A program made the position numbers and the translations under genes. This document shows positions 1,814 to 39,525 of a DNA stretch of 64,000 nt, piece after piece (positions within the stretch are counted from its first letter, which is position 1; each line of letters begins with the position of its first letter). Under the pieces are notes generated by a model, which worked only from the letters and a program-made list of their open reading frames with translations, was not told the DNA's origin and did not search any database. The DNA is taken from assembly GCF_029227915.1 (NCBI RefSeq), contig NC_079876.1, positions 13,516,001 through 13,580,000 of the forward strand, in the 5' to 3' direction. The stretch is from Hydractinia symbiolongicarpus. Its lineage: Eukaryota > Cnidaria > Hydrozoa > Anthoathecata > Hydractiniidae.

Positions 1814-2036
1814 TCAACGATTGATAAAAATAGAACTTTTTCTTATAGAGAAAAAATTCTATTCAAAATCATTTTCCGCGCTTTTGATCTCGTCGAAAAT
1901 AACACTCCCTTGGATTGTTAATAGTGTTTAAAGAAAAAGTTGACACCAGTAAACAATACTACAAGATAATTGCTCCCAGTCTGTATATATCAACCTTACA
2001 CACTTTTATGTTTGTAAGTGAAAGTTCATTAGAAAA
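1814..2036. promoter_or_regulatory. Divergent promoter region of pogo element
   Basis: This 223-bp gap separates the HIRAN gene (leftward) from the transposase (rightward), so both must start here or nearby. It is AT-rich and has a TATATAT stretch near 1985. No finer promoter element can be fixed by eye. Confidence 0.4.
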
Positions 2037-3461
2037 ATGTCGCACAACGAGGAGAAGCAGTTAATATCCCATAAACGGGAAAAAGGAAGAAGCTTTACCT
2101 TTGAATTTAAGACAACAGTTGTTGATCACGCAATTAGTACATCAAATCGCGAAGCAGGAAGAAAGTACGGTGTCGATGAAAAAAGAGTAAGAGAATGGAG
2201 AGCTAATGTGGAGAAGTTGAAACAAGGAGCAGCGAAAAGATTCAAACTAGAAGGAGGAGGTTGCAAAATCAAGAATCTTGATTTAGAAGAAGATCTGCTC
2301 GAATGGATACATGATAGGAGAGCTAATTCTTTGCGTGTTTCGAGAAAACTGATAATGAGAAAAGCAAAAGCAATGCACGATGAAAAAGCTGGAGAGGACA
2401 CTGTTGCAAAAAATAGTTTCCAGGCTAGTCGAGGTTGGTTGGAAAAGTTCATGAAACGAAATTGTCTTTCATTACGTCGTAGAACGACAACAGTTCAAAA
2501 GGATCCAGCGTATCTTGTGGACAGGTTGGTGCAGTATGTAGTACATGTCCGCCGAATGTCAAAGAAATACCAATTCAACGCCGGTTCGATTCTTGCAATG
2601 GACGAGACTGCTGTTTGGGCGGATATGACAGCACCTACAACGGTGTCACAGCGTGGCGAACGAGAAATTATGCTTAAATCGACTGGTCATGAAAAGGTCA
2701 GAATTTCTGTATGCTTGACAGCAAAGGCAGACGGAAGTAAATTTAAACCATTTATTGTTTTTGGTGGTGCAAAACGCGAATGCAAAGAACTAAATACTGA
2801 ATTCAAAAATAAATGCGTAGTTGTGTCCTCAAAAAATGCATGGATGAACGAGGAACTCACCTTACACTATGTGCAAACAGTTTTAGGAAAGTTTTCCTTT
2901 AATCGACGCTTGTTAGCTTGGGATTCATTTGAATGCCACATGATGGATTCCGTGAAACAAGAATTGTCAAAAGGCAGAATTGAGAATGTCATAATTCCCG
3001 GTGGCTGCACTAAATATATACAGGCACCAGATGTCTCATGGAATAAACCATTTAAGAGTCGGATGATCGATCTTTATAACGAATGGATGGTTGAAGGTGT
3101 TCAACAGTTCACAAAAGGAGGAAACCAGAAACCTCCATCGCGACGAAAGCTAGTGCAATGGGTTTTAGACGCATGGAATGGCTTGAGCACGGAAATGATT
3201 ATCAAATCTTTCAAGTCGTGTGGTTTAAATTTAGCTCTTGATGGATCAGAGGATGGACAAATCCATTGTTTTAAAGAAGGATCGTCCTGTTCATCTGGTG
3301 CTACCTTAATGAAAAAAGCAACTGAGGCATTGGAAGAAGACCAATCTTCTGACAACCCATTTGAAATTTATGATTGTGATGTAAATGAAAGCTATGAGTC
3401 CTTTCATGTTATCGACGAAGACTCGGACGGAGATAGCGACATTGACATTGACATTGTTTAA
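2037..3461 (+). CDS. pogo/Tigger-like DDE transposase
   Basis: The predicted protein has 474 residues in one uninterrupted frame. Residues about 15-62 form an N-terminal helix-turn-helix with REAGRKYGVDEKRVREWR. Residues about 84-150 fit a CENP-B-type DNA-binding domain ending in SRGWLEKFMKRN. A DDE_1 catalytic domain follows. The putative catalytic triad is D189 (in AMDETAVW), D296 (in WDSFECHM) and D332 (in APDVSWNKPFK), so a D-D-35-D spacing. The C-terminus is acidic and repetitive (DSDGDSDIDIDIV). Length and motif order match pogo/Tigger transposases, and no key residue is missing. AATAAA at 3559-3564, in the right subterminal repeat, may be its poly(A) signal. Confidence 0.92.
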   Translation: MSHNEEKQLISHKREKGRSFTFEFKTTVVDHAISTSNREAGRKYGVDEKRVREWRANVEKLKQGAAKRFKLEGGGCKIKNLDLEEDLLEWIHDRRANSLRVSRKLIMRKAKAMHDEKAGEDTVAKNSFQASRGWLEKFMKRNCLSLRRRTTTVQKDPAYLVDRLVQYVVHVRRMSKKYQFNAGSILAMDETAVWADMTAPTTVSQRGEREIMLKSTGHEKVRISVCLTAKADGSKFKPFIVFGGAKRECKELNTEFKNKCVVVSSKNAWMNEELTLHYVQTVLGKFSFNRRLLAWDSFECHMMDSVKQELSKGRIENVIIPGGCTKYIQAPDVSWNKPFKSRMIDLYNEWMVEGVQQFTKGGNQKPPSRRKLVQWVLDAWNGLSTEMIIKSFKSCGLNLALDGSEDGQIHCFKEGSSCSSGATLMKKATEALEEDQSSDNPFEIYDCDVNESYESFHVIDEDSDGDSDIDIDIV

Positions 3462-10632: not shown

Positions 10633-11053
10633 ATGGCCACCAAGGCAAATTGGGATATTATGATATCCTACCATCATGCGTCTGGCAAGGAGTACATGAA
10701 AAGGATTAAAGAGTCATTATTAAAACAGGATTACTCTGTTTGGACTGATGAAGATCGAGTGTATGGAGATTTAGGTGCACGGATGGCAGAAGGCGTTGCA
10801 GGATCAAAATTGATCATTCTTTTACTTTCAAAGGGATATGAAGAATCTAAAAACTGTCAGAAAGAATACAACTTGGCCTGTGCGCAACACAAGAAAATTA
10901 TCTGTGTAATAGTTGAGAAAGGTTATAAACCTCCAGCAGACCATGTGCTCAGTTTGATCCTGGGCAATAACATGTACTACCAATTATACAGAGGTGATGA
11001 AACAACTTTTCAAAATCTATTAAAAGACATCTCACAACAGCTATTAGGAGAAG
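10633..11053 (+). CDS. Exon 1: TIR domain
   Basis: Residues 1-140 follow the TIR pattern: WDIMISYHHASG (strand A), YSVWTDEDRVYGDLGARMAEG, SKLIILLLSKGYEESKNCQKEY, then KKIICVIVEKGYKPP. Glu78 in NCQKEYNLA sits where the catalytic glutamate of NAD-cleaving TIR domains lies (SARM1 and plant TIRs), so NADase activity is possible. The start codon has a favourable context (CAAAATGG). The exon ends in phase 1 at a GTATGT donor. Confidence 0.85.
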
Positions 11054-14000
11054 GTATGTGCATTTCAGTTGTAGATTTAAAAACTGCAAAACTGTTTTAT
11101 CGTTGTGTCATCTTGTGTATAGTTTGAAATACTAAAGGTCGTCGAAACTTTTAGTTGGCAAAACTTTAGAATTTTTTTGTTTACATTTCCCCGTCTTTGT
11201 TAGATTAAAGCAAAAAGAAACTACTACATTAGACCAATGTTTGTTTATTTTAAAAAAAGTTTATTTTTGAAGCAGGGTTTAAATAAATCTGTAGCTGGCC
11301 AATCCATAACAACCACAAATTGTGGATATTGTTAATGAGCCCTCAGTTAACACATGTAAATTCAGTCTATTTTGTTACACTGAATTTGTTGAAATGCTAG
11401 ATCTTTGCGTTTCTATTGAGTAACAGTGCATTTAATGATTTAGTTTAGATAGTTTAAATAGGGTTGTTTTAACTTTTTTGCTTTTATTTATTTTCTTATT
11501 TTTGATAGCCCCAGTAAAGACTGAGCCCATTTTGAAGTAAGTGTCACACATTTTACAAAAATTCTACAATGAAAAAAAATATTCTGTTTGTCATGTTTTG
11601 TTTTGTTTTGTTTTGTTTTTGTTTTTTTATCTCTACCTATTAAACCAGGAAAAATTTCCTAAAAGTATATAAATTTAACAATAACGTCTTTCTTTCGTAT
11701 TTTTGAAATTTAATTACTAAATCTATTCTTGTTAAAAGTTCTTGTTACAAGTATGTAGTAAGCAACATCAGTTCTTTATACATCAGTAAAAGATATTTTA
11801 AATGGTAAAACATCTTCTTTAAAAATATAATAATAGTAAGAAAAATGATTTTAGAAAACTGACATTATACTGCCTTATAAATCGGGATAAAAAGACATTA
11901 GGCGACCTTATGTAAAGCAGATTATACATTCTCACCTTGTCGCCGATTGTTTATATCAATGAAATTTTAATTCAGCGGATTTGTTGATGATTCAGTAAAA
12001 GATATTTTATATGCTAAAACACTTCCTATAAAAATGTAATAATAGTAATAATAATGATTTTACAAGGCTTACTTTATTCTACGCTTATAAAGTCAGTAAA
12101 AAAAGATATTAGTTAATTAAAACTAATCATAAACAACTCTTTAATTTGCATCTACTTTAAACTACTCGTTGTCTATTATATCATTTATCAGAATTAAAGA
12201 GTTTTTTTACCGTTATTACAACAGTAATATAGACTCATGATTAATATCATAAAGTGCTAGTTGGTGGTCCGTGGAAAAATCCCCGGGTTCGGTCCTTTTA
12301 ATACCTAACTGCGTGTGTGTTAATACATGCGGTCCTGTTTTGTGTGACAGACAGACAGACGTATACGGGTATTATAATATAGATACAGAAATATAAAGTT
12401 CGTTGACAAATATTTTAAAATATTAGCTTCCAACTATATTTTTAATTTTAGTTTTTGGATGTATAAAGACAAAGAAGAAAATATCATTGTTAAGTTTCAT
12501 AATAAAAACTTAAAAACCGTTCAGAGAATTACTATACAACAGGACGGTAGTGATACCAAGGTAGAACTGAAAGAATCATCAGACTTTCATGAAGAAATGA
12601 GAGACAATAAGCTTGTGTTAACAATATATAAGACAGCTGCTACCTGGTACATCCTAAAACTTGTCATATCGTTGCTGGACATTGATGGAAATAAAGAGAT
12701 TCTTGAAGTAGACAGTAAGTAGTAACTAAATAGGTTTTTAATTTTTTTAAAAAAAAATTGTCTTAAAAATTTTATTCGTCACTGTCATTACTATTTGTAG
12801 ATGTCAACATTGCCTGCGCTCACAAGTATTACAACAAAGAAAGTAAATTTTCTCTCCATACACATAATAGTGACAAAGTTGCAGCATATATCAAGTCAAT
12901 TATCAGCACCCCTGTTCTTGAAACTAACATTCAGCTGTTCTGTTGTGGAGAAGTATATGAAAAATGTAGAAACGAATACTTAAGATTTTCAAGAAATTAT
13001 GTTAATGAAAACTGCACATCCAACAATGCCTTTCTAAAAGAAGCTGTCCAATTTCCACCACCAATGGTAAATGAAGAGATTTCCAGCTTTGCATTTCGAC
13101 TAAAGTCAATTCTCAGTGAAATTGGGCACGTGTTTGTGATCTTCACACATTACAATGCCACGGACAATCTGAGACTTCTAAATTTAAATACTTATTGTGA
13201 TCGTGTTCAAGATTATAAACACAGACTTTTGCTGCTCCATCCATCTCAAAATACCTTCGTCAACATAAGATACACTAAAACTACTAGTGGGTCAATCATT
13301 GAGGAAGAATTTCAAAATGGTGAGGTAGATATCAAACATTTGTTTGCAATCAATCAACAATTTATCTCTGATAGTACATCCAGATTTATAAATGTTGTTG
13401 CTGCACCAAATTTCCGAAAGTTAGAGAACATCGACGTTTGTGCAAACTGTCAATTGTTAGATGAGCCTATTTTCTCGGACGACACAAAGGTTCAAAATTT
13501 CCTTCTATCTCTGGGATTAACAAGAAAAGATCTTGATCACAAAAGCAAAGAGCAGTACATGAACATATTGGGTCAAGCAATGTGTTTCATGGCTAGTAGG
13601 GAAACTGTGAACACTGTTCCAACAATCAAAGATGATATCCATGGGAAAATATGCACTGTTCTATTGTCATCTGAGCAGTCAAATATTTTTTTTAACGAAT
13701 CTAAAAAGAAAATTATTGTTGGACCATTAGGAAGTGGTAAATCGGTTCTTGCTTTATCTCATCTAAAACAACTTTACGAATGTTGTGAAGGAAAATGCAC
13801 AATATACTATGTCATGTGGAGTGACAAAACAATACTGCTGAAAGGTATTGAAAAATTTGTCTCAAAATTTCAATGCAACAAAAATATCACTTTGAAAGTA
13901 AAGAATGCAATTGAATTAGCAAAAGAGCTCAATCTCTTTAAACTTCCAACCTTATCCCAATTATTACTGTTGTTGTTAAAGAAACACGGTGGTATGTCAT

Positions 14001-17000
14001 TTCATTTTATAAGTGACGAAGTTGATGGAGCGATGTTTGACAATCAAGAAGCTTTATCGCTGAAGCAGATTTTGGAGAGGGAAGTGGCTTTAAAGAATTC
14101 CATGATTGTGTTGTTTCTGCAATCTTTGGAAAAGCACAGGATATTGGTTTTATCTGGAGAATCAAAAGGCCATGATAAATACAAGTACGAAGAAGCTGGT
14201 ATGCGTGTGTTTTACCTCAATAAATCAATGCGAACAACGAAGAAAAATTTTAACTTCTTGGTACAATTTGAGAAGAAAATTTCCGGGATTGAATCAGTTA
14301 TCAAACATCCTGTTCAGGACAAAAATCATGAAATATCATCAGCAAAATCTGGAACGACCAGCTCTACCATTCAACAAAATTCAAAGCAGCGTAAAGTCTT
14401 AGAAATTAAGAATTTACAAGTAGAATCAGCCGAAGAAAGTAAAAAGATTTTTGAAGAACCAGTGGATATAGAGGAAATTGCAGCTGCCTCACATTATCCA
14501 GATGTTTCTGAAGATATCAAAACCCTAACCAAAGTGAAATGCAACTCTGCGCAAGAAGTTGGACATAACATTGAAGGTACAAAGCCAATACTGATACATC
14601 TTAATTATGAAAATGAAACAGAAGAAAAAAGTATTGTCATGTTAGCTCTCTCGTTGGAACACTATCTAGATCGTGTTAATATTAAACGTTTATTTTTTCA
14701 TAACACTGTGGAACAAATGATCACGTTTCGAAAAGTTTTGGATTTAATCAGAAGGGATTATTTTGTTTATAACAAACAAACTGAATGGAGTGTCATCGAC
14801 CGCTGCAATAAAGTGTGTGATCTTCCTGCAGACGTGGGTTATAATATAATAACCGACGTACACGGTAGTAGAGGAACAGACTTTTGTGAAACCGTATGTG
14901 CTATTGACGTAAATGACACTATGTTGCGACACAAGACGTTAGAAGGCATGTCCAGAGTAACTGAACGCCTGATAATTGTTTGCGCGTGTAACATACAGTC
15001 TGCTACTACAAATTCATCAACTGGACATATCATTAAAGATCTGTTACCAGAGTACCTAAATGAGGTTTCTGTTGAATGTTGCAAGAATTCAAACGAAAAT
15101 TACATTGAAACACAAGTTAATGACAGAAAATCGATAGGATATGTAAATACAAATTCGCGTAGATTCAAAAATCTCATGGAACGGATAAAGAAAATTGAAT
15201 ATAAAAAGAATGAATCAGATGTGCATGATTTCGCGCGAGTTATACGTAAAAAGTAAATATATCTTTTTATTTATTTGAAGTATAAGCGAATTACCAGCAG
15301 GTATAATTTTTAATCAGAACTGCAAAATGTCTTCTAAACTTGTTTTTAGTACACTTTTATGCTTGCATCTAATTTTTAGTTTCCAGCCTCCAACAATCAA
15401 TGTGAGCTGCAATTTTTCAAACGACAATTCCTGTACAATTAATTGGAATGAGGAAGGATATCGTTACGTAATTGAAATGGAAAACGACAGATCACAATGG
15501 CAGAACGTAGAACATATCATCACGTTTGGTGGATGTGTTATCAATAATTTAGTTGTTGGAAATAAATACAAGTTTCGTGTTTTGGCTAGTAACGACTCTG
15601 GTCACGCTCAAAGTGTTGTATCGTATCGACATGTGTAAGTTTTTTTTTGCGGCTTTACTATTGGTTTTCTAAAGGTATGGTTATTTTTATTTCATTGGGT
15701 ACTTCATTTTTTATTTCTAGAAACAATCTTCCATCAACTCTTGCAGATATGTCTATCACTTTTAAAGGTAAGTTATCACGAAACTGAAATGATATATTTT
15801 TGACCTCATTTTAATCATAGTGCTTGTGAAACATTTTAATTTTTATTAATCACCGAAAAACGTTCTTAGTGTCCAAAGTTAAATATGAAATTTCTCTATG
15901 GTGAAATGTTAACTTTGCTACTATTATTTTTCCTTGAGTTGATAGGATATTTTGTATATCCAGTGCAGCTTTCTCCTGGTAAACAGAAGCAAAAAAGATT
16001 TACATGTTATCAAACTGTAATTGTATTGAAAAATCTTTTTTTTTTTAATTTAATCAAATCTCTTTTCTTTGAAATGCTTTGAAAATATAAAATTAAAATA
16101 ATCCAGCATTACGAAATCAAAGATGCACTAGAGATCTATAGTTTATTCTCAAGGTAATTTTTTTTGGTGAATAAGAATCTTCAATTTTCTCGACAATTAT
16201 ATGTAGTTTAATCGAACTTTAGAAAATTGAACTAAAACGTTACTCTTGAATCAAGCGGGTTTTTTATTACAATTACGACCTCTACTATAAAGTTGGCTCC
16301 CTATACTTTAACAAAAGCAAACGGAAAATAATCAAGGTATTTTTTTAATCCTGTTTGGTTGATAGGCTCCTTTTTCTCTTTCACATAAAGTGTGGCAAAT
16401 TAAAAAACAGTAAAAAAATGATTTGATCCAGCATAAAAAAAATTAATAATTTTTCTAATTGCATTTTCAAAGAGGTAGGAATGAAAATTATTTTTTTTGC
16501 GCGGTATTAATTAAAATTATTGGGGTAGTAATTGGGATAGCGGCTGGGGTAGTTAAATCGTATAATCGAAGCGTATATTTTGTAAATATACATTGTAGAT
16601 TCAATTTTACTGTAATACTCTTTGAATTGGGTGTAAAGTTGTTAAACAAAAGTTTTACCTGTACATTTAGTTCACAATGCGCAGCTCCGCAATATTTATA
16701 TGTTGCAGGATAATGCAGATCTTATGCCTTCGCAAAATTTGGCCACCGTGTCAAATTGATCACTATTAAAAAAAGATGGGCAATGTTGAACAGTCCGGCT
16801 CCTAAAGGATAGTTACCAAACTTGTCCTTGGGAACTGTTAGGCTTTTTATAGTTGGACGGCCTAGTATAATACAGGCCATTATCCATAGCCTTAAAGGTT
16901 TGAGTATACGGGTTGTGAAGTAGTGAAATTCTTATGAAGCTATAGCCTCGTTTCCATACTATTTCAATATTGTAAAGAGAATTTCATGCGAAGAAAATTT

Positions 17001-19997
17001 GTCATCAGGACCGGGGAAAAGCCTCCTTTCCAAGTTATTTATATTTAACCGTAATGGCTGGCCTCAATTCCATGTTATTTAGTCATTGACACGAGAACAT
17101 CATAACCAAAAGATTTGCTGTAAGAGCCTTCTTTTCAAGTTATTAGCAACCTTACGAAACAAGAACGGGAGCATTTGCGACGGAGAAAATACTATTATTT
17201 TTTCAACGAGCATGTACAGATCAGGACAATCCCACAAAACAAGGTTGACATTTTCCCTTCGATTTGAAAAGAACCATTTTGAGCTTGTGGATAGAGCGTC
17301 AAGTATTTAAGAAAGTAAAAATGTGATATGGAAGTATTACTGATAAGAGTACACAGAAACAGCTTATATGAGTTTTTCCCTAAATTGTGTCACTTTTTTT
17401 GCATTTTTTTGATAGTTGCCATGGTTTTATTTCATATTGTAACTTTCGTTTAACTTTTCTTAAGCAATTATTGGCGCGTTTTGCGTACAACGGGATTTCA
17501 TGAAAAGTTATTGTCAACATTGTTGCAGATAGTGCCGTATTTTGTAAAAGTCTCTACTTACACTTGAAAATTATCGCTAATAGAAACAATTCAGTGCAAA
17601 TCTTATGGGACGGTTTTCATCTGCAAAACTTATCAGTGGCAAAGGAAAGCACATAATGATCTGGTCTGTAGAATGAAACTACCATCAAAAACACCACCCT
17701 AAACACTACCCCAACTTCATTCTCAGGCCCCCTATTTGCTTTCTTATATTGGGACGGCGCGAACAGGAATGGGTCTTGAGGACGAGGTTGGGATACCCCA
17801 TGTTTTCAAATAACCGATCGCGTGTCAGTGAAACATCTTTGAAAATATTCGTGCAGACGAAATCGAATATATTGAGTACAATTTGTTCTATTTTTATCAC
17901 TATATCATACTCAACCAAAACGAATATGTTTCATTCAATAAATAATTTTGATAAAATCCGGTCGTGTGAGGTTAGAGAAAATTTAATTTTGATAAAAGTA
18001 GCAGCTAGTTTTTATTATACATTATTTTTTTTCATGAGAAACCCGTTTACAATTAACGGAGTATTTACTAAGAGCTGTGTACCTAAGTCTCGTGTTCTTT
18101 AGAACTTGTTCTTATAAAAAACCGATCGCGTGTCAAAAAACAATCTTTGAAATATTCGTGCAGCCGAAATCGAATATATTGAGTACAGTCGTTCTATTTT
18201 TATCACTATATCATACTCAACCAAAACGAATATGTTTCATTCAACAACGAGTTCTGATAACAACAGGATGTGAATAAGGTGAGAAAGGTTTTTCACTAAT
18301 CGTTAAAAAACTCTCGAAAGTTTCATTTTAAAAATATTTTGTGTAGAAATATTATTTTAACGATACAATACTTTTTTAAAGAAACCTAAAAAAAATTTTA
18401 TGATTTTTATCGTACAAATTTTTAAATTAAAAAATTAAATTTCTGAATGGTAGCTAAATTACTTTCAACGGTGTGAGAAAAAATATCGCTCGTATAAATT
18501 ATTTTTTCGACATAAAATTTTGTACCGAAGATTTAAATTATCTTCTCTCACTAAACTTGTTCTTTTTATGAAACCGTTGTGTGATAAAGAATGTATTAGT
18601 TAAACAAAAATGCTGATGTCATCATGATTTAGACAATTGATTTTGTGTTTCTAATTTGGTCTCTATTTGTGAATTCATACATGATGACGTCATTAAATTA
18701 GTGTTATTACAATTTAAATATTTCATCTGTTTATCAATGTTTGTATTAATTTCTATAATCGTTTATTTTCTTCGATATTTTTTTGTCGCTACGAACAAAT
18801 TATCTCAAAATATTTTTTGTTTAAGAATTTCCACTTGCGCAAATTAATCTGCAATGGTGACATCAAAATAATATACTCGAAATTCGTTTGTTCTTATATT
18901 TATTTTTGTGTTTTTATAATTATTTGTGAATGTTTAATATATTAACATTCACTATTTTTATGTTTATAAAATTTCCAATCTATTACAATAAGAAGAAACA
19001 TCTTAAAATCGATGTCATGAATTTTTCGTTAGTGGATTTCATAAATTTATAAATTTATATTTTTTATTCATTTATTATTTTATATTTAGATATCGAGGAA
19101 ATTATTAAATCTAACGATATCGAGAAACTGAAAAAATTACTATCCATTCATCCAAACATCAATCACATGAGAGATGAAGATGAATTCACACCATTGATGT
19201 GGACAGTACGTTTCACCAACAATACATCAATGGTGGAAATACTCATCTCATATGGGAGTGATGTTTGGGCGGAAGATGGATGGAAACACAACAGCTATCA
19301 TTGGGCTGCATATCGTGATCGTCACACAATATTAGATATGTTATGTCGACATGATGTAACAAACATCAACCGTGTAGATGTTCACAACCGCACACCATTA
19401 CATTGTGCTGCAATTGATGGTTACATCTCATGTGTTGATGTTTTGTTGCGTCATGAAAATATTGATGTGACGATCAAAGATAAATATGGAAACACAGCTT
19501 ATGATTGTGCTGGAGAATGGATGAATGGACAAAACCGGGAAATAATAAGACGGAAAATAAAAGATTACGAAGTAAGTTATTAAGTTGATTTAATAAATTA
19601 GAAAGAAGAATAAATTTGTATTTTATTTTAAGTTTGTCATATTAAGACATAAAAATGATTATAATATTTAAATGATAAAAGATAGGAAAAAATAGGAAGG
19701 AATGATTGGTTTGTAAGCAGAGTAAAATATTTTAACAACATTTTTAAAATAATTTAAAATACAATTAGATGTGATAATTTTGGTTTAAGTAGATGAAAAA
19801 GATAAAATAAAATGTTGAACAAAAACATGTAGTTATAAAAAAATAATTTGAATACTAAGTAAAATAAAACTTCGTACCCAGACCTCTATCAACTGGATGA
19901 AACGAGAATAAACAATTAAACAGCTAGTTATGTTATATATGTTACGAGTTTTTTTCAATGTTTTTAAATATTTTTTCAGCAAAGAAGGAGGAGATAA
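10633..19997 (+). CDS. TIR-SF1 NTPase-FN3-ankyrin protein, 8 exons
   Basis: Eight exons join in phase at GT/AG sites: 10633-11053, 11509-11536, 12452-12714, 12801-15252, 15380-15634, 15721-15767, 19090-19571 and 19980-19997. They total 3,966 bases and predict 1,321 residues. Domain order is TIR (1-140), a short linker, a beta-rich then mixed region (150-520), a superfamily-1 helicase-type NTPase (about 520-970), FN3 (about 1056-1138) and ankyrin repeats (1156-1316). TIR domains act as signalling or NAD-cleaving modules. UvrD-type NTPases work on nucleic acid, and FN3 plus ankyrin usually serve ligand or protein binding. An intracellular immune or stress sensor is inference. The weakest joins are the 15252 donor, which if unused would split off an FN3-ankyrin gene, and the last intron. 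AATAAA lies at 20273-20278. Confidence 0.75.
11509..11536 (+). CDS. Exon 2: 28-base micro-exon
   Basis: It is preceded by TTTTTGATAG and followed by GTAAGTG. It joins exon 1 (phase 1) to exon 3 (phase 2) and adds APVKTEPIL. Skipping it would break the frame between exons 1 and 3, which supports it. Confidence 0.6.
11755..12115. repeat. Intronic direct repeat, about 125 bp, two copies
   Basis: Bases about 11775-11900 and 11990-12115 share CAGTAAAAGATATTTTA, TGTAATAATAGTAA-type and CTTATAAA segments at matching spacing. Both lie in intron 2 of the TIR gene. Confidence 0.55.
12255..12375 (+). repeat. Dispersed hairpin repeat (CTAGTCG family), diverged copy
   Basis: It contains CCGTGGAAAAATCCCCGGGT and then GACAGACAGACAGACGTATA, matching the copy at 33670-33783. 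It lies in intron 2 of the TIR gene. Confidence 0.6.
12452..12714 (+). CDS. Exon 3: beta-rich region
   Basis: This encodes residues 150-237 and starts after TTTAATTTTAG in phase 2. The product, from NFWMYKDKEENIIVKF onward, alternates charged and hydrophobic residues like an all-beta or Ig-like fold. No family is recognised. The donor GTAAGTAG leaves phase 1, which matches the next acceptor. Confidence 0.7.
12801..15252 (+). CDS. Exon 4: SF1 helicase-type NTPase core
   Basis: This encodes residues 238-1054. Ordered motifs are a Q-motif-like LSSEQSNIF (526-534), Walker A GPLGSGKS (545-552), Walker B-type HFISDE (639-644), LNKSMRTT (710-717, the place of the LxxNYRS motif in UvrD helicases), HGSRGTDF (925-932, motif V) and GMSRVTERLIIV (953-964, motif VI). 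This layout matches superfamily-1 helicases of the UvrD/Schlafen/DUF2075 type. The 285-residue N-terminal part is unassigned and holds a CANC pair at 451-454. The exon closes at a GTAAAT donor. Read through, it would stop at 15254-15256. Confidence 0.85.
15380..15634 (+). CDS. Exon 5: fibronectin type III domain
   Basis: This encodes residues 1055-1139. FN3 hallmarks are PPTINVSC at the start, CTINWNEE (strand B tryptophan), NNLVVGNKYKFRVLASNDSG (tyrosine corner and G strand). Acceptor TAATTTTTAG gives the only open phase with exon 4. An ATG at 15327 would give an 18-residue hydrophobic, signal-like leader before the domain, so an independent gene start cannot be excluded. However, no AATAAA separates it from exon 4. 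Confidence 0.8.
15721..15767 (+). CDS. Exon 6: short linker exon
   Basis: This 47-base exon, with acceptor TTATTTCTAG and donor GTAAGTTA, encodes VNNLPSTLADMSITFK. It links FN3 to the ankyrin block in phase. It closes FN3 and starts the ankyrin-proximal linker, an order also found in FANK1 (FN3 followed by ankyrin repeats). Confidence 0.7.
16892..17700. repeat. Dispersed repeat, copy 1
   Basis: It shares TAAAGGTTTGA, GCTATAGCCTCGTTTC, AAAAGCCTCCTTTC, GGGACGGTTTTCATCT and ATCTGGTCTGTA in the same order with 21407-22260. It lies in intron 6. Confidence 0.7.
17811..18276. repeat. Direct duplication of about 155 bp
   Basis: Bases 17811-17970 and 18119-18276 are about 90% alike and share AACCGATCGCGTGTCA through ACGAATATGTTTCATTCAA. 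About 150 bp of other sequence separates them. Confidence 0.85.
19090..19571 (+). CDS. Exon 7: ankyrin repeats
   Basis: This encodes residues 1156-1316. There are about five ankyrin units, including the N-terminal cap (DIEEIIKSNDIEKLKKLLS), FTPLMWTVRFTNNTSMVEIL, SYHWAAYRDRHTILDML, RTPLHCAAIDGYISCVDVLL and NTAYDCAGEWMNGQNREII. The exon starts in phase after ATATTTAG. FN3 followed by ankyrin repeats is the FANK1 arrangement. Reading through the GTAAGT donor gives VSY and a stop at 19581-19583, with AATAAA motifs just beyond, so two 3' ends are possible. Confidence 0.85.
19980..19997 (+). CDS. Exon 8: terminal exon
   Basis: After the acceptor ATTTTTTCAG, this adds five residues, QRRRR, and a stop at 19995-19997. 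Phase and both splice sites are good, but an exon this short needs transcript evidence. Confidence 0.45.
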   Translation, partial: QRRRR

Positions 19998-21406
19998 ATG
20001 TCCCAGGAAAAAATAGCAATCCGGGCACCAGGTGAGATAATTTTTAAAATGTTTAAAAATTATGCGGTATTGTAATTTTACCAATCTATTTAAGTTTAAG
20101 TAACTTCGAAAATTTTCACACTTTTTTATGATATTAGAAACTTTTATTTTTTAGATGACGAACAAGTTTGCAGTTAAATTTTTTATTCTATTTATATTAG
20201 TCATTTATATATATTAATATGTTATACATATATATATTTATTTTAAATATATCTTTTTGTATATATGTCTATAATAAATTATTGCAAATATAAATCCATG
20301 TTGCTTTTAGTTTTATATTATTTATTATTTAAAATATATATTTATACTTTATTTATATTAGAACAAATTTATAGGAACAATGAAGCTGGAAGTGGCTGAA
20401 AAATAAGAACAAAGGGAAAGGCTGAAGTTTTAATTTTGTGTTCTTAGCGCAAAAAATGGCAAATTACAGAATAAAATGATTTTAAGCAGTTTATCAGATT
20501 GTGTCTGACAGATTTATCTGATTTGACAAAAATCTTTTTTGTCGTCACAATCTGAAAAGTTACAACGTTTTAACTTTTTAGATTTTGTCTGAAGAGAATT
20601 AACCAATGAAGTAACAGACTGTTTTATGAAATATTATTGATTTGAAAATTCGTATGATTTCGAAAGAAAGAAACTTCACAAACAGAAATTTTAAAAGGGG
20701 AAAAAGGTCTATGGAACATAAAAACTCTGTTGTACAAAAACAAGGGGCGAGAAGGCGAAGGTAATAGTCCGAATTTGTGACAAATTAAAAATGAAACAAA
20801 ATCTTCTCTTTCGCTGTGTTCGTTGTTTTTGCCTTTCCAGTAAAACAGGTATTTCGATTGCGGCAGCCTTTTCGAGGTGAGAAGCCATGTTAAAAAGAGA
20901 AAAAAATATTTGCGTCATCTGACACAAATGTAAACTTTAGAATGTGATATAATTAATGAGAAAACTCTTCAGACAAAATCTGGTAATGTAAAAGACGCCG
21001 CTGTCGGATGAACATGTAATTAAAAATCAGCGTGAAGACAAATTTCATCGTTCTTATAACGCATTTTTTAGCAAAAACATTAGAATTAAATTTAATTTTT
21101 ACCAATCGTACAATCCTTTTCTTTCACACTGTCTATAGTAAAAGTTGTCAGAATTTTTATTAGCAGAATTTCAGCTATTCTCTGACTATCCCTGTGAATC
21201 CACTAATTTTTTTATAGTATTGTGTTATATCAAATATATTTATATACCTATTTATGTATGAGTTCGGGTGAGTTTTGTAAAATATATTTGATTTGATTTT
21301 GATTTACTGTGGAACAATTTTTGTTCGATTTATTTTCGTATCATGGAAAGATACATGTTCTAAGTCACGTGGTTTTGCTGCATACAAATTGTCTCGTTCC
21401 CAACTA
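19998..21406. other. 3' flank of the TIR gene
   Basis: This is very AT-rich. AATAAA at 20273-20278 is a plausible poly(A) signal. A 72-codon minus-strand frame (20709-20927) shows no domain. Nothing else was seen. Confidence 0.4.
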
Positions 21407-27000: not shown

Positions 27001-30000
27001 TTACCTGTCATCATTTGGAATACAGTGGTTGTTCTTGCTTATTAAGCAAATTTAATGTTTTTTATAAATGTGTGGCTATAAAAATAACCGTTTTTAGTTT
27101 CTTCTTTCTTCCAAGTTTGTTTAATTGCTCTTACGGCATGGCACAGTTTCGATATCAATTTCATGACAGTTACCAGCCATGGGTCGGAAATATTGTGTGT
27201 TTTAATTGTGTTGTCATTATAACCAAAATCACGGATTGATGGGTTATCTTCCTATGACCAATTGCACGTTGACGACAAAAGTAGTTTTCAAGGGGATCTT
27301 GAAAAAATCTTTCTGTCAGTACATATGGAACTCCATTATTAATTAAATACTGGATTAATTCTTCAACAGTAGAATGGACAGTGATTTTGATTCCTTGGTA
27401 GGTTTTCCATGAGATAAACATAGTTGCTCTAATATTATCTGTGAAATTACCAGGCCTATCAGCAATTGAATCCTTCCACGTTTTGAAATATCCTAGAAAT
27501 GTTTCGGTCAATCATAAGAATCTTTCATCATCAACAGATGTGTACGGTTTAAGAAATGGTTTACGTTTAATTGCTGCTTCTTTGGTATTCTTGACGTTGA
27601 GAAAGTCGAAAATTGGTCGAACACATATTACAATATTTGGCAGTTCCATTAGCTTCTGGTGGTCCATACAATTGAAGAGCGGTAAAGACAGCTTTGCTTA
27701 ACACTTGTGCTGCCAGACGTACATTCATGACTGAATATGGTGTGAGCTTATGTGGTCATTTGTTATTTTGGGAACAAGATGTAACCTACAGTCTAAGTCA
27801 TCAAGGAATAACTTTGAAATATAGTTCCAGGTAATATAACTTCCATCATTTCACATATTTCTGGGACATGTTGCTGCAAGAGAATTACTCAGGCAATTGC
27901 GGGCTGTTTTATATAAGTGTGGTAGATCTGAGATGAAGTAGATGGACCGTTCCTCATCCGCCATCACATTCAAAGTGCGTTATGTTACGTCCACTTCTGC
28001 ATTAATGTCAGCTACACGGGTGATGTTTAGGTGCATATGGTACATTCGTCGGTCTGGAGATGCTCCATCACTTGTGACACCAACAACTTTTATGCCACAT
28101 TTTTCCTCCAGTATGCCAACCACTTTCCTAAAGAAAGAAAACAATTGATGTGACATTGGTAGTAGCAAAATTTGCAAACGAAAATTTTAAAGGATTTACA
28201 ATGCTGCTCACGAGAAAAACATGAGATGCAATTTCATCAATCTTTTTCAACGCAACATAATTTAGATCAATTTTACCAAGGTCAACAAAACCGATAAGAT
28301 CACTATTATGCTTATCCCACACAAGACTTTCTTGAATTTTCATTTCATCCATTAATAATATTGCATATTTCTCATGTGGTTGTAATTTGAAGACCATATT
28401 ACACAATTCCTGGATAACGTCTTTGTTAAAGCCCTGTTTTGGACAAATATAGTTCTTATAGTCCCTTAAACGACGTCTACTAGGAAGAACCAAGAAACCA
28501 CTGTCTTTTTTATCGTCAACACAAATATCATCATAAAAGGCGGGGGATTTTGCAGTTAAACCCAAGCAGTAACGAATGATCATAGGATGATAGCGAACAT
28601 CAGTTTTCGATGATGATAAATATTTCTGCTGCTCTTCCCAAAAACATTTCATGAATGGTGATATCTTGCGACTAGTTGTTGACATAATTTTTATGAAATC
28701 TTCACCAAGACGTTTTTTGACTGGAACTGCACAAGTGGAAATTTCATCTTGCATTTTATTTAACTCTTCATTAATTCTTTATTTTCCAACCGATGACTTT
28801 GAAGGGTTTTTATGATTCGTTCTGGAAAAGTCATGGAAATTGGTGCTTTAAGTTTGGCAGGTGAAATTAAATTGTCCCTTTTCCTTTTCAAACTTAGGCT
28901 TTCTTTTGATTCCGACCTAACACATTTCAATCATTTTTCAGAACAAGGTGGAATAAGAACTATGCAATTTGGAGATCGATACCATTTGCTTTGATGAAGA
29001 GGTGCACTAGTGCTATCCTTGATGTTAAATACTTTTGGAACACAGTGCTCAAGACAGCTACCAGCAAAGTGGTCAAACCTAGGCATAATTTCAAATCCAT
29101 AATTAATCTTGTTAAATATGTAATTGTATTAAGTTTCAGTGAATGAGAATGTCATGTTTAGCAGGAACGGACGGTAAAAAAACACGAACAGTGAAAACAA
29201 GATTATTACCAACATATATCTCAAACTTTGGAACTGAGTGGATAGCATCATGACAGGCAAGAAAAGCACAATCACCTGTAGACTAATTTCAACAACTGAG
29301 TTTTAGAAATAAAATCTGTAAATGACTTGTACCGATCAGTAATGACATTTTCCACTGGATCAATTTTTTTCTGCAAAATAGATTGTGCTGATTGACGAGG
29401 CTTAGAAGATGTGGAGGATGAAGGAAAACTTTTGATAGGAAGGTTTATTGTAGGGATAGTACTGGGAACAAGTGTTGTTCTGCTAGAGTGATTACGATTC
29501 ATTTGATTTTCGCTGAGTTGCTTTTCACAAATATATATTTTCTTTCTTTGAATTCTATCCCTTAGAGCATGATCAACTTCCCTATCTTTTATCACAACAG
29601 CAACTAACTTTTCTCTCCACGACTTGTCAAATTGATTCTCACCAGCAGGAACTTTAAAAATAGATAGACCTATATATTTAGCTCTTTGTGAAACTGTGCA
29701 ACCGTATATAGAGCAATTTTTGCCAGGCATGTTAAAGATAATTCTGTTTAAATGTTTGTTAATCCTATGTTTACAGTAACTAACCTGCGTGCAGTCAAAG
29801 CACTGGGTACTAGGTATATTCTGCTAACAAAAACATAAACAATAGAGCCACGCGATTCACCAGACTCTTTTTCTTATGACTATGCTAAGATATAAAATTT
29901 CAGTCCAGCCTTTTCCGCGGGTAACAATAGTATCGGTCAATTATTACTTGCGGAGAAGGTAAGCCTAAAATTGTCTATGCAAATTTGAAGATTTTTTCAC

Positions 30001-37466: not shown

Positions 37467-39248
37467 TCAACACACTATCGTTGGTAACCTTGGTTTCACT
37501 ATCTTGAATCTTTCCTTAACCAAACTTGGATTGTTTATCAAGGTGTATGCTAAAAACCGATTAAAAGCAACTGAGTTAACAATGTGTTGTCTGCGAACAA
37601 TACATCTTGAATCAGTGAACAAACAATAACCGTCTTCTAAAATAGTTGAATCGCTCTTGCAAGATTCATTTAATAAAATTTGACAAAAATATCTCATAAT
37701 TGGGTTTTTATATGAAGCTTGAACATGCAAGAAACCAATGTATGCTAAAAAACCACTATCAAATTTTTGGAAAAACTTGGAAATCATTGCGGTATGGTCA
37801 ATTTGTCCAACAAACAAAATGCTGACCAAAAATGCTTTGAAAGATCTGGATAAGCATGATACAGCACCAATAACGATATTGAAGAAAAAGAAAAAGTACA
37901 TGGCAATATGGTAAATTTTCAAATTTCTTACATAGATCGCAATTGTTGATAAGGGCTTCACAGTGAAAACTTTGTATGCCAGCAGTAATTGTAGGAGATA
38001 AATTATCAAAGGCATAAGCAAGTATGATGCAAGGTACCTTAAAAGATTTTCCGCAACTTCTTGAACAGATGGAAAATCAACTGCCAAAACAATAAATCCA
38101 TATATCAGGAAGAACAAAATGAAAAATACAATGAAAAAAACAATCATCCCCCAGGTCATGTATGCAACCAAATAACCAGGAAAGAATAAATTGTAATAAA
38201 CCATTAATCGATAGTTAACAAGTTTGGAAATATCAGTTTTTTTGCCAGCATACAGAGTTAACACATTTGCACGGTGTGAATAGATAAAGTGAAGCAGTAG
38301 CAGACCATACACTATTCCAGTTACAGCAAAGGAAACATAAAATGAAATGTAAAAACCTTCCATTGTTTTCTTAAGTGTTGGGTATATGTTTTCGGTTGAA
38401 TTGATATTAGACTCCAGTGAAGTAAGAAGAATCCCATTTGCTTTACTGAAACCATATATGGATAAAACAGCCAGATAATAATACACAATCATGATAACCA
38501 CGATAGATGATAAAAACACAGTAGAAAACTTAAACCAAGGCTTGCTGTATCTGCTGTACAATCTTTTAAGGAAGTTGCTGCTATGAATATCTACAGCGTC
38601 TCTTGAAAGGACATTAAGCGCTTTCTTCACATAAGTAATTTGATAGTCGTTCACTAGTTTATGCTCCAGTAACGGTCTGCAGTACACTCCTTGCTTCAAA
38701 TTTATGTAACAATTTTTAACAAATATTCCAAAAAGAGCCAACATGCTTAAAATGCTGGGTAAGTTTTCCATAACATTTACCAAAATAAGTTCCGTAACAT
38801 TAAAGGAGCAGGAGTAATAACAAGACTGTAACAACACAAAAATTAATTTCCACAATGTAAACAATGCACCAAAAACATACGCCATGACAACATATGAAGA
38901 ATTAATACAAGCAAATAACGGAAAGTTTATCAGTCCAATCTCTATAATATAAATAGTACCACAAAAAGCCTGCCCAATAACCCCAGGCAGAAACACAAGA
39001 ACAGTGGAACTGTTCATTAAAAGATGCACAATATCTCCAATCATTGATGCAAAAGCAAGTATTACCATGAAGCGATTTTTATCATTGTCCAGTAGAAACA
39101 GAAATGGTGCAATAACTTTAACCTGTCTAGTTTTATAATATTCATAAGCATAAAGTACAAAGATTATCAGCAATGAAGGTATAACAGTATAATGCTGCAG
39201 CATAGCTATACTCCACACTAGTTGACATGTTGCATTTGTTGAGCTCAT
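37467..39248 (-). CDS. STRA6-like multi-pass membrane protein
   Basis: The protein has 593 residues in a single exon, with about nine to eleven hydrophobic spans, an extracellular-type N-terminus with NAT at residue 5 and several further glycosylation sequons. The central segment SHRANVLTLYAGKK followed by KLVNYRLMVYYNLFFPGYLV resembles the conserved membrane core of STRA6, the receptor that takes up retinol from its carrier. The soluble tail carries cysteines and RRQHIVNSVAF. A CTTTCTTTAG acceptor about 20 bases before the ATG suggests a 5' UTR intron. STRA6 is the best match by eye. An unrelated multi-pass transporter remains possible. Confidence 0.6.
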   Translation of the reverse strand: MSSTNATCQLVWSIAMLQHYTVIPSLLIIFVLYAYEYYKTRQVKVIAPFLFLLDNDKNRFMVILAFASMIGDIVHLLMNSSTVLVFLPGVIGQAFCGTIYIIEIGLINFPLFACINSSYVVMAYVFGALFTLWKLIFVLLQSCYYSCSFNVTELILVNVMENLPSILSMLALFGIFVKNCYINLKQGVYCRPLLEHKLVNDYQITYVKKALNVLSRDAVDIHSSNFLKRLYSRYSKPWFKFSTVFLSSIVVIMIVYYYLAVLSIYGFSKANGILLTSLESNINSTENIYPTLKKTMEGFYISFYVSFAVTGIVYGLLLLHFIYSHRANVLTLYAGKKTDISKLVNYRLMVYYNLFFPGYLVAYMTWGMIVFFIVFFILFFLIYGFIVLAVDFPSVQEVAENLLRYLASYLLMPLIIYLLQLLLAYKVFTVKPLSTIAIYVRNLKIYHIAMYFFFFFNIVIGAVSCLSRSFKAFLVSILFVGQIDHTAMISKFFQKFDSGFLAYIGFLHVQASYKNPIMRYFCQILLNESCKSDSTILEDGYCLFTDSRCIVRRQHIVNSVAFNRFLAYTLINNPSLVKERFKIVKPRLPTIVC

Positions 39249-39525
39249 CTTGTTTAGTTGCTTTTCTAAAGAAAGAAAAATAAACGCTATGTCACTCTCC
39301 TGATTTCTTTCTAAATTTAGGGATCAGATTAGCTAAATATATATAAAACATTTAATAAGCACTTTAGTCATGTGACTAGAATGTCTCAAATTTGATAGCA
39401 GGATTTAGTCTGGTCTTATAATTTATATAAAATTGATAAAATTCTCATATAAAACAAAAAATATATATATTTTCATTTGGGCAGATATCAATGCTGAAAT
39501 TTATATAATCTGGATAATAATATAT
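39249..39525. other. Upstream region of the STRA6-like gene
   Basis: A short 5' leader with a splice-acceptor-like sequence is followed by AT-rich DNA. No promoter element can be named. Confidence 0.35.

Follow-up and report, generated by a model that had tools for sequence, protein, structure and literature searches.

The gene LOC130629528 of the hydrozoan Hydractinia symbiolongicarpus, located in a 64,000-nucleotide stretch of the 480.9 Mb assembly (C2:13516001-13580000, here called the window), probably encodes an NLR-like intracellular receptor. A Schlafen-like NTPase core would carry a TIR output, or a HEPN output in paralogues, and the protein would end in a germline-diversified ankyrin paratope that is exchanged between loci. 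NLR/STAND proteins combine an effector, an NTPase and repeats that are under diversifying selection, and this is the layout found here.

A hypervariable surface in the ankyrin exon

Exon 7 (19090..19571, + strand, as for all parts of the gene given below) encodes a cassette of four ankyrin repeats, starting at D1184 (19173), D1218 (19275), D1252 (19377) and D1286 (19479). In DARPins, repeat positions 2, 3, 5, 13 and 14 are randomised. We take the same positions of the four repeats to be target-binding, which gives 20 predicted columns, here called the paratope; the set was written down after the alignment had been seen. Among 16 proteins (the window protein with P0001, P0002 and P0004-P0016; not P0003, a model of the window gene itself, nor the remoter P0017-P0027), 18 of the 20 columns exceed 1.5 bits and count as hypervariable, as do 6 of the 139 remaining columns. 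The 43 genomic cassettes, comprising all matches at 77-100% identity, give 18 of 20 against 6 of 140 (p=8.6e-17), and register shifts of 1-12 in either direction reach at most 8 of 20. Three of the six remaining hypervariable columns are repeat position 10.

The 43 cassettes, none of which contains a stop, are distributed over C2 (38), C6 (2), C10 (1) and C11 (2) and display 41 distinct 20-residue paratopes. In the 16 proteins four residues abound in the paratope, namely Y (12.9%), R (11.0%), W (6.6%) and F (5.3%), as against 4.0, 5.9, 1.9 and 0.2% in the rest of the cassette. The same five positions thus vary here and in DARPins, but the cassettes of this family are natural, germline-encoded and part of a multidomain protein, and they differ in that position 10 varies in three of the four repeats and position 33 hardly at all. 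Further ankyrin cassettes, mostly 39-47% identical to that of the window, are spread over C1 as a second large group and might be a sister family.

Selection on the predicted binding positions

Across the eight loci with a TIR exon, the ratio of nonsynonymous to synonymous substitution rates (dN/dS) is 0.29 for the TIR domain, 0.59 for exon 3, 0.37 for exon 4, 0.33 for FN3 and 3.04 for the ankyrin exon. The TIR domain, the NTPase and FN3 are under purifying selection, and the ankyrin exon is the only one of the five exons tested with a ratio above 1. Within it the ratio is 6.95 at paratope codons and 1.98 at the others. The wider set of 42-43 cassettes gives 4.9-5.0 at the paratope (bootstrap 3.2-9.4), well above 1, and 1.5 elsewhere (bootstrap 0.96-2.54), which falls to 1.18 without the six further hypervariable columns.

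Is selection the primary force, or is the paratope a target of mutation? Hypermutation or another directed diversification aimed at paratope codons, with selection secondary, would account for a dS that is about three times higher there than in the rest of the exon (0.137 against 0.041), and for the many paratope codon pairs that differ at two bases (5,101 of 16,879) or three (1,088). It would also fit the changed paratopes, described below, in gene copies whose exon 4 is almost unchanged. However, single-base differences between paratope codons are nonsynonymous in 6,358 pairs and synonymous in 87 (42 cassettes, L048 omitted; the pairs are not independent), so mutation alone is insufficient. 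The frame and the framework are moreover intact in 43 of 43 cassettes, and five mosaic cassette pairs indicate exchange. We consider directed diversification as the leading process unlikely.

Decoupling and probable exchange of the ankyrin exon

The ankyrin part of the protein is decoupled from the gene body. Compared with the TIR paralogues, whose NTPase is 86-95% identical to that of the window protein, the ankyrin part is 78-80% identical; compared with the HEPN-type proteins P0008 and P0010-P0016 and with P0009, whose NTPase is 37-42% identical, it is 77-85% identical. The more distant P0017-P0019, P0021 and P0026 reach 39-65%. Over the 120 pairs of the 16 proteins, identity is 0.89-0.90 in the framework (excluding the hypervariable columns) and 0.22-0.24 in the paratope in every bin of core identity (means 0.38-0.94). 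Mantel correlations of the core are -0.09 with the framework and -0.01 with the paratope, as against 0.97 with FN3. At the nucleotide level, three loci (L023-L025), called HEPN-type because the end of their NTPase matches P0014, P0015 and P0010 at 99-100% identity, differ from the eight TIR loci by a dS of 0.041 and a dN of 0.067 outside the paratope, and by a dS of 0.108 and a dN of 0.752 at paratope codons.

Intron 6 of the window gene contains a tandem unit of ~308 bp, present as one full and one partial copy (17808..18260). Homology between this intron and L023-L025 is mainly found in the unit (~17808-18284, 81-94%) and in the surroundings of the exon (18942-19670, 86-88%), and otherwise in short pieces. 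The unit is at least partly present at the corresponding gene region in 12 of 12 loci examined. Both the unit and the homology flanking the exon are plausible substrates for recombination.

The window gene and the copy at C2:12.69 Mb, 837 kb away, differ at 1 of 2,452 nt in exon 4, at 3 nt in exon 3 and at none in exons 1, 5 and 6, and yet by 9% in the ankyrin exon, where 13 of 19 comparable paratope residues are changed. The copies at C2:13.74 and C2:12.90 show two changes in exon 4 and 14 of 20 different paratope residues, and those at C2:13.13 and C2:13.93 have identical paratopes. Because ordinary point mutation is unlikely to change a paratope and yet leave 2,452 nt nearly intact, the sequences suggest that the paratope was exchanged or targeted. 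Recombination within the ankyrin exon is supported by the five mosaic pairs and by shared repeat words. These words are shared in 4, 5, 3 and 3 pairs, mostly owing to two cassette pairs with identical paratopes; without these, the counts are 1, 3, 1 and 1, a total of six that is reached by 6 of 1000 shuffles. The pairwise homoplasy index (PHI), however, is significant only at the shortest setting and weak beyond it (34, 740 and 4527 of 5000 at sizes of 5, 10 and 20).

Replacement of the whole exon as the sole process was rejected on the 28 pairs of TIR loci. In the 21 pairs that lack G6, divergence is higher in the ankyrin exon (0.079-0.125) than in the 0.9 kb of intron upstream (0.024-0.062); the seven pairs that include G6 show the reverse, with 0.150-0.197 in the upstream intron. 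Mean divergence over all 28 pairs is 0.094 in the exon, 0.079 upstream and 0.087 downstream.

Near-identical gene copies lie ~0.8 Mb apart between 12.6 and 13.9 Mb of C2 (12.69/13.53, 12.90/13.74 and 13.13/13.93). They may have arisen by segmental duplication, or the assembly may have placed two haplotypes in tandem. These copies are also what would favor a view of the variation as mainly an artefact of assembly or haplotypes, which is very improbable: the variation is limited to binding codons, is mostly nonsynonymous and is also found between divergent loci of C2, C6, C10 and C11, whereas unmerged haplotypes would raise the copy number and not produce this pattern.

Hydractinia is a model of allorecognition. 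Alternatively, then, the ankyrin surfaces could serve in homophilic recognition and mark the colony's self instead of binding pathogens, and the near-identical loci may represent alleles, with the ankyrin exon as their main difference. Nevertheless, the main start codon places the TIR domain first, with no predicted secretory route, and TIR and HEPN fronts are cytosolic types of effector, which makes a role in allorecognition quite unlikely.

A Schlafen-like core with interchangeable fronts

Exon 4 (12801..15252) has no Pfam match above cut-off. It contains Walker A (13721-13741) and Walker B (DE, 14015-14020) motifs and is predicted to adopt an SF1 fold of the Schlafen/UvrD type, preceded by a predicted Schlafen-like linker domain (~residues 1-290 of the exon). 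The seven best Foldseek matches of the predicted exon-4 fold are human Schlafen SLFN11/SLFN14 (linker plus helicase), which are also the best matches of the linker domain alone. Paralogues P0009 and P0027 give weak, below-cut-off matches to the Pfam model SLFN-g3_helicase. As modelled, exon 4 corresponds to the linker plus group-III helicase module of the Schlafen family. The predicted linker domain and SF1 helicase fold are shared with SLFN11/SLFN14, but identity is ~10%, the relative arrangement of the two halves differs (Foldseek root-mean-square deviation ~19-22), and the window family has a TIR or HEPN front and added FN3 and ankyrin domains. The Schlafen (AlbA-like) RNase core was not found in Pfam scans of the window protein and the scanned paralogues.

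The same type of scan returned no NACHT or NB-ARC domain, with NPHP3_N and other ATPase models below cut-off only, and a PDB sequence search with the core found nothing convincing. Prokaryotic and viral relatives of the core were sought with two peptide patterns in each collection, which gave 53 matches in genome_contigs and 63 in viral_contigs, none of which was confirmed. PADLOC gave no hits beyond an ankyrin-bearing model, matched by P0001 and P0008, and a MukB-like match in P0010. P0044 is a remote relative (25% identity).

The family comprises at least 40 genomic loci; the core search scored 40 of 455 candidates and the cassette search 150 of 379, so that copy numbers are lower bounds. 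The window holds one member (tblastn with 27 relatives). Among the 27 aligned representatives, three have a TIR front (P0001, P0002 and P0004) and 13 a HEPN-type front. The RX4-6H motif is present in 13 of 13 and reads RNxxxH in the HEPN-type sequences inspected. Pfam assigns HEPN_DZIP3 (PF18738) in 11 of the 13, P0014 and P0020 being HEPN-type by similarity only. P0009 and P0026, together with P0046 from outside this set, share another front, and P0023 has a long one, both without assignment; the other representatives start at or after the segment of exon 3, or are incomplete. TIR and HEPN-type fronts are, as judged from the sequences, interchangeable on one core. In the HEPN-type P0014 (LOC130612446), a coiled-coil-like segment is repeated in a very long array between HEPN and core, and shorter arrays occur in P0010-P0012, P0015 and P0016.

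The TIR domain matches chains of SARM1 (E 0.0011). A C-x2-E motif, whose glutamate is E78 (10864-10866), is present in eight of the eight TIR loci. We take E78 as a candidate catalytic residue of the kind found in TIR NAD+ hydrolases; it would fit their motif, although the SARM1 alignment does not pair it so.

The predicted fold bears on a further alternative, in which the protein controls selfish elements or RNA as a Schlafen-like nucleic-acid sensor and the ankyrin variation tracks proteins of transposons or viruses. Besides the Schlafen/UvrD-like prediction, the HEPN RNase-type motif of the paralogues and the presence of transposase genes near the window gene are consistent with it, but nearby transposons are commonplace in such genomes. 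We regard this role as doubtful. The initial annotation had proposed an intracellular sensor coupling nucleic-acid or ligand detection to TIR output. An intracellular sensor with TIR output is still the best reading; only the predicted fold hints at nucleic-acid sensing, and the strongest evidence lies instead at the ankyrin end, the putative variable ligand-binding surface.

Proposed mechanism

The NLR-like receptor reading can be put as a sequence of steps. The C-terminal ankyrin repeats would bind a ligand through the germline-hypervariable paratope. Binding may then alter the state of the Schlafen-like linker and SF1 NTPase core, through release or ordering, and the core would in turn gather the N-terminal TIR domains, leading to NAD+ consumption or to a signal. 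In the HEPN paralogues, the output could be RNA cleavage instead. New specificities would arise by exchange of the ankyrin exon between loci, either through ectopic gene conversion or through recombination around the exon and the intron-6 repeat, and selection for altered binding residues may generate further ones. What the sequences show directly is the architecture and the evolutionary signature; ligand binding, the NTPase switch, TIR enzymology, the immune role and the exact mode of exchange are those parts of the scheme that we infer.

Relation to known systems

NACHT proteins with DZIP3-like HEPN, TIR or death-domain fronts appear in survey passages on cnidarians and a bivalve (PMC8260672, PMC10236652, PMC9646362; for related reviews, see passages in PMC3710099, PMC8195603). 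As far as these passages go, they share with the window family a swappable N-terminal effector, a central NTPase, C-terminal repeats and lineage-specific expansions. The window family differs in having a Schlafen/UvrD-like NTPase without a Pfam NACHT match and ankyrin repeats with a measured hypervariable surface. The survey passages describe no Schlafen-like version, and no search was aimed at Schlafen-like ankyrin receptors. The words ankyrin, TIR and NLR are absent from the main text of the paper on the Hydractinia genome (PMC11067881).

Two other kinds of system offer parallels. Fungal NLRs have hypervariable ankyrin, TPR or WD40 repeats, and in them, as in the window family, the repeat surface is under diversifying selection on a homogenised framework. 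They use a STAND NTPase, whereas in the window family the variable unit is a cassette of one whole exon, which differs between genes that carry different effectors. In bacterial defence proteins, a regulated NTPase can have either TIR or HEPN as its output. The initial annotation had drawn this comparison for bacterial TIR proteins, and it holds as a likeness of logic; the window gene, however, is an animal gene with introns, and the two peptide patterns per collection found no prokaryotic or viral relative of its core.

There is about an even chance that the family forms an undescribed class of animal immune receptors, with Schlafen-type NTPases, swappable TIR/HEPN outputs and an ankyrin paratope repertoire reassorted by exchange of one exon. 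If so, the family would be nature's equivalent of a DARPin library. Because the diversity is confined to a single-exon cassette, receptors with different outputs could share or trade specificities. This touches on two open questions, namely how animals without antibodies assemble large intracellular recognition repertoires and how Schlafen-type sensors originated. With more than 40 ankyrin cassettes in one genome, on bodies with different outputs and with candidate binding residues that can be read directly, a laboratory cnidarian becomes open to ligand fishing using cloned ankyrin domains, to tests for selection in populations and to a comparison of TIR with HEPN output.

Gene model

The eight exons join in phase into 1,321 residues, with GT donors, AG acceptors and no internal stop. 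Exon 1 (10633..11053) carries the start codon and the TIR domain (Pfam TIR_2 on the joined product, E=3.4e-16, profile positions 1-122 of 122). It is followed by a short linker (exon 2, 11509..11536), by exon 3 (12452..12714, ~88 residues, no Pfam match) and by the NTPase exon. Exon 5 (15380..15634) encodes an FN3-like domain whose fn3 match is below cut-off (E=3.2e-4, 21.3 of 25 bits), exon 6 (15721..15767) is another short linker, and the ankyrin cassette (Ank_2, E=1.1e-28) is followed by the last codons and the stop in exon 8 (19980..19998). Of the domains named in the initial annotation, TIR and ankyrin are confirmed by Pfam, FN3 is sub-threshold, and the SF1 assignment comes from the Walker motifs and the predicted fold.

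The eight-exon model, as originally proposed, is confirmed. The automatic NCBI model protein P0003 (LOC130629528 isoform X2, 1169 residues) is 100% identical across exons 3-8, and the models of paralogues P0001, P0002 and P0004 extend from TIR through ankyrin. At the window locus, the exon 1-2-3 junctions are supported by paralogue conservation and these models. Eight genomic exons are 95-100% identical to the window TIR exon (30 of 30 candidates scored), and all eight lie in loci with the same core, in which the ATG is kept, exons 1-7 retain their GT/AG splice sites and the joined frame stays open. Exon 8 was located in four of the eight; for two of the other four, G2 and G3, the retrieved sequence stops 37-120 nt past exon 7. 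A TAA flagged in the core match at C2:13261086 is probably located past the exon end, because the match reaches that end, and the joined exons of the locus are stop-free. The next-best TIR exons (71% and 66% identity) are the two at C15:10895299-10901854 (- strand), the latter with one stop.

The sequence has a TAA in frame at 15254-15256 and, at 15327, a methionine with a hydrophobic stretch, which could instead suggest a split in which a TIR-NTPase gene ends at 15256 and an independent FN3-ankyrin gene begins at ~15327. The initial annotation had named such a transcript end and restart as a finding that would overturn it. The NCBI models cross the junction, and donor, acceptor and frame are identical in eight of eight loci, and the split is rejected as highly improbable.

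Other elements in the window

About 7 kb upstream of the gene, an open transposase frame (2025-3458, + strand) has Tc5-type DNA-binding and DDE_1 domains. Two frames at 28131-29823 (- strand) are probably transposon-derived; one encodes a TNP-like RNase H domain, and the other gives a THAP match that falls just short of the cut-off. A 618-residue open frame at 37470-39323 (- strand) matches the retinol-binding-protein receptor family (E=1.3e-47).

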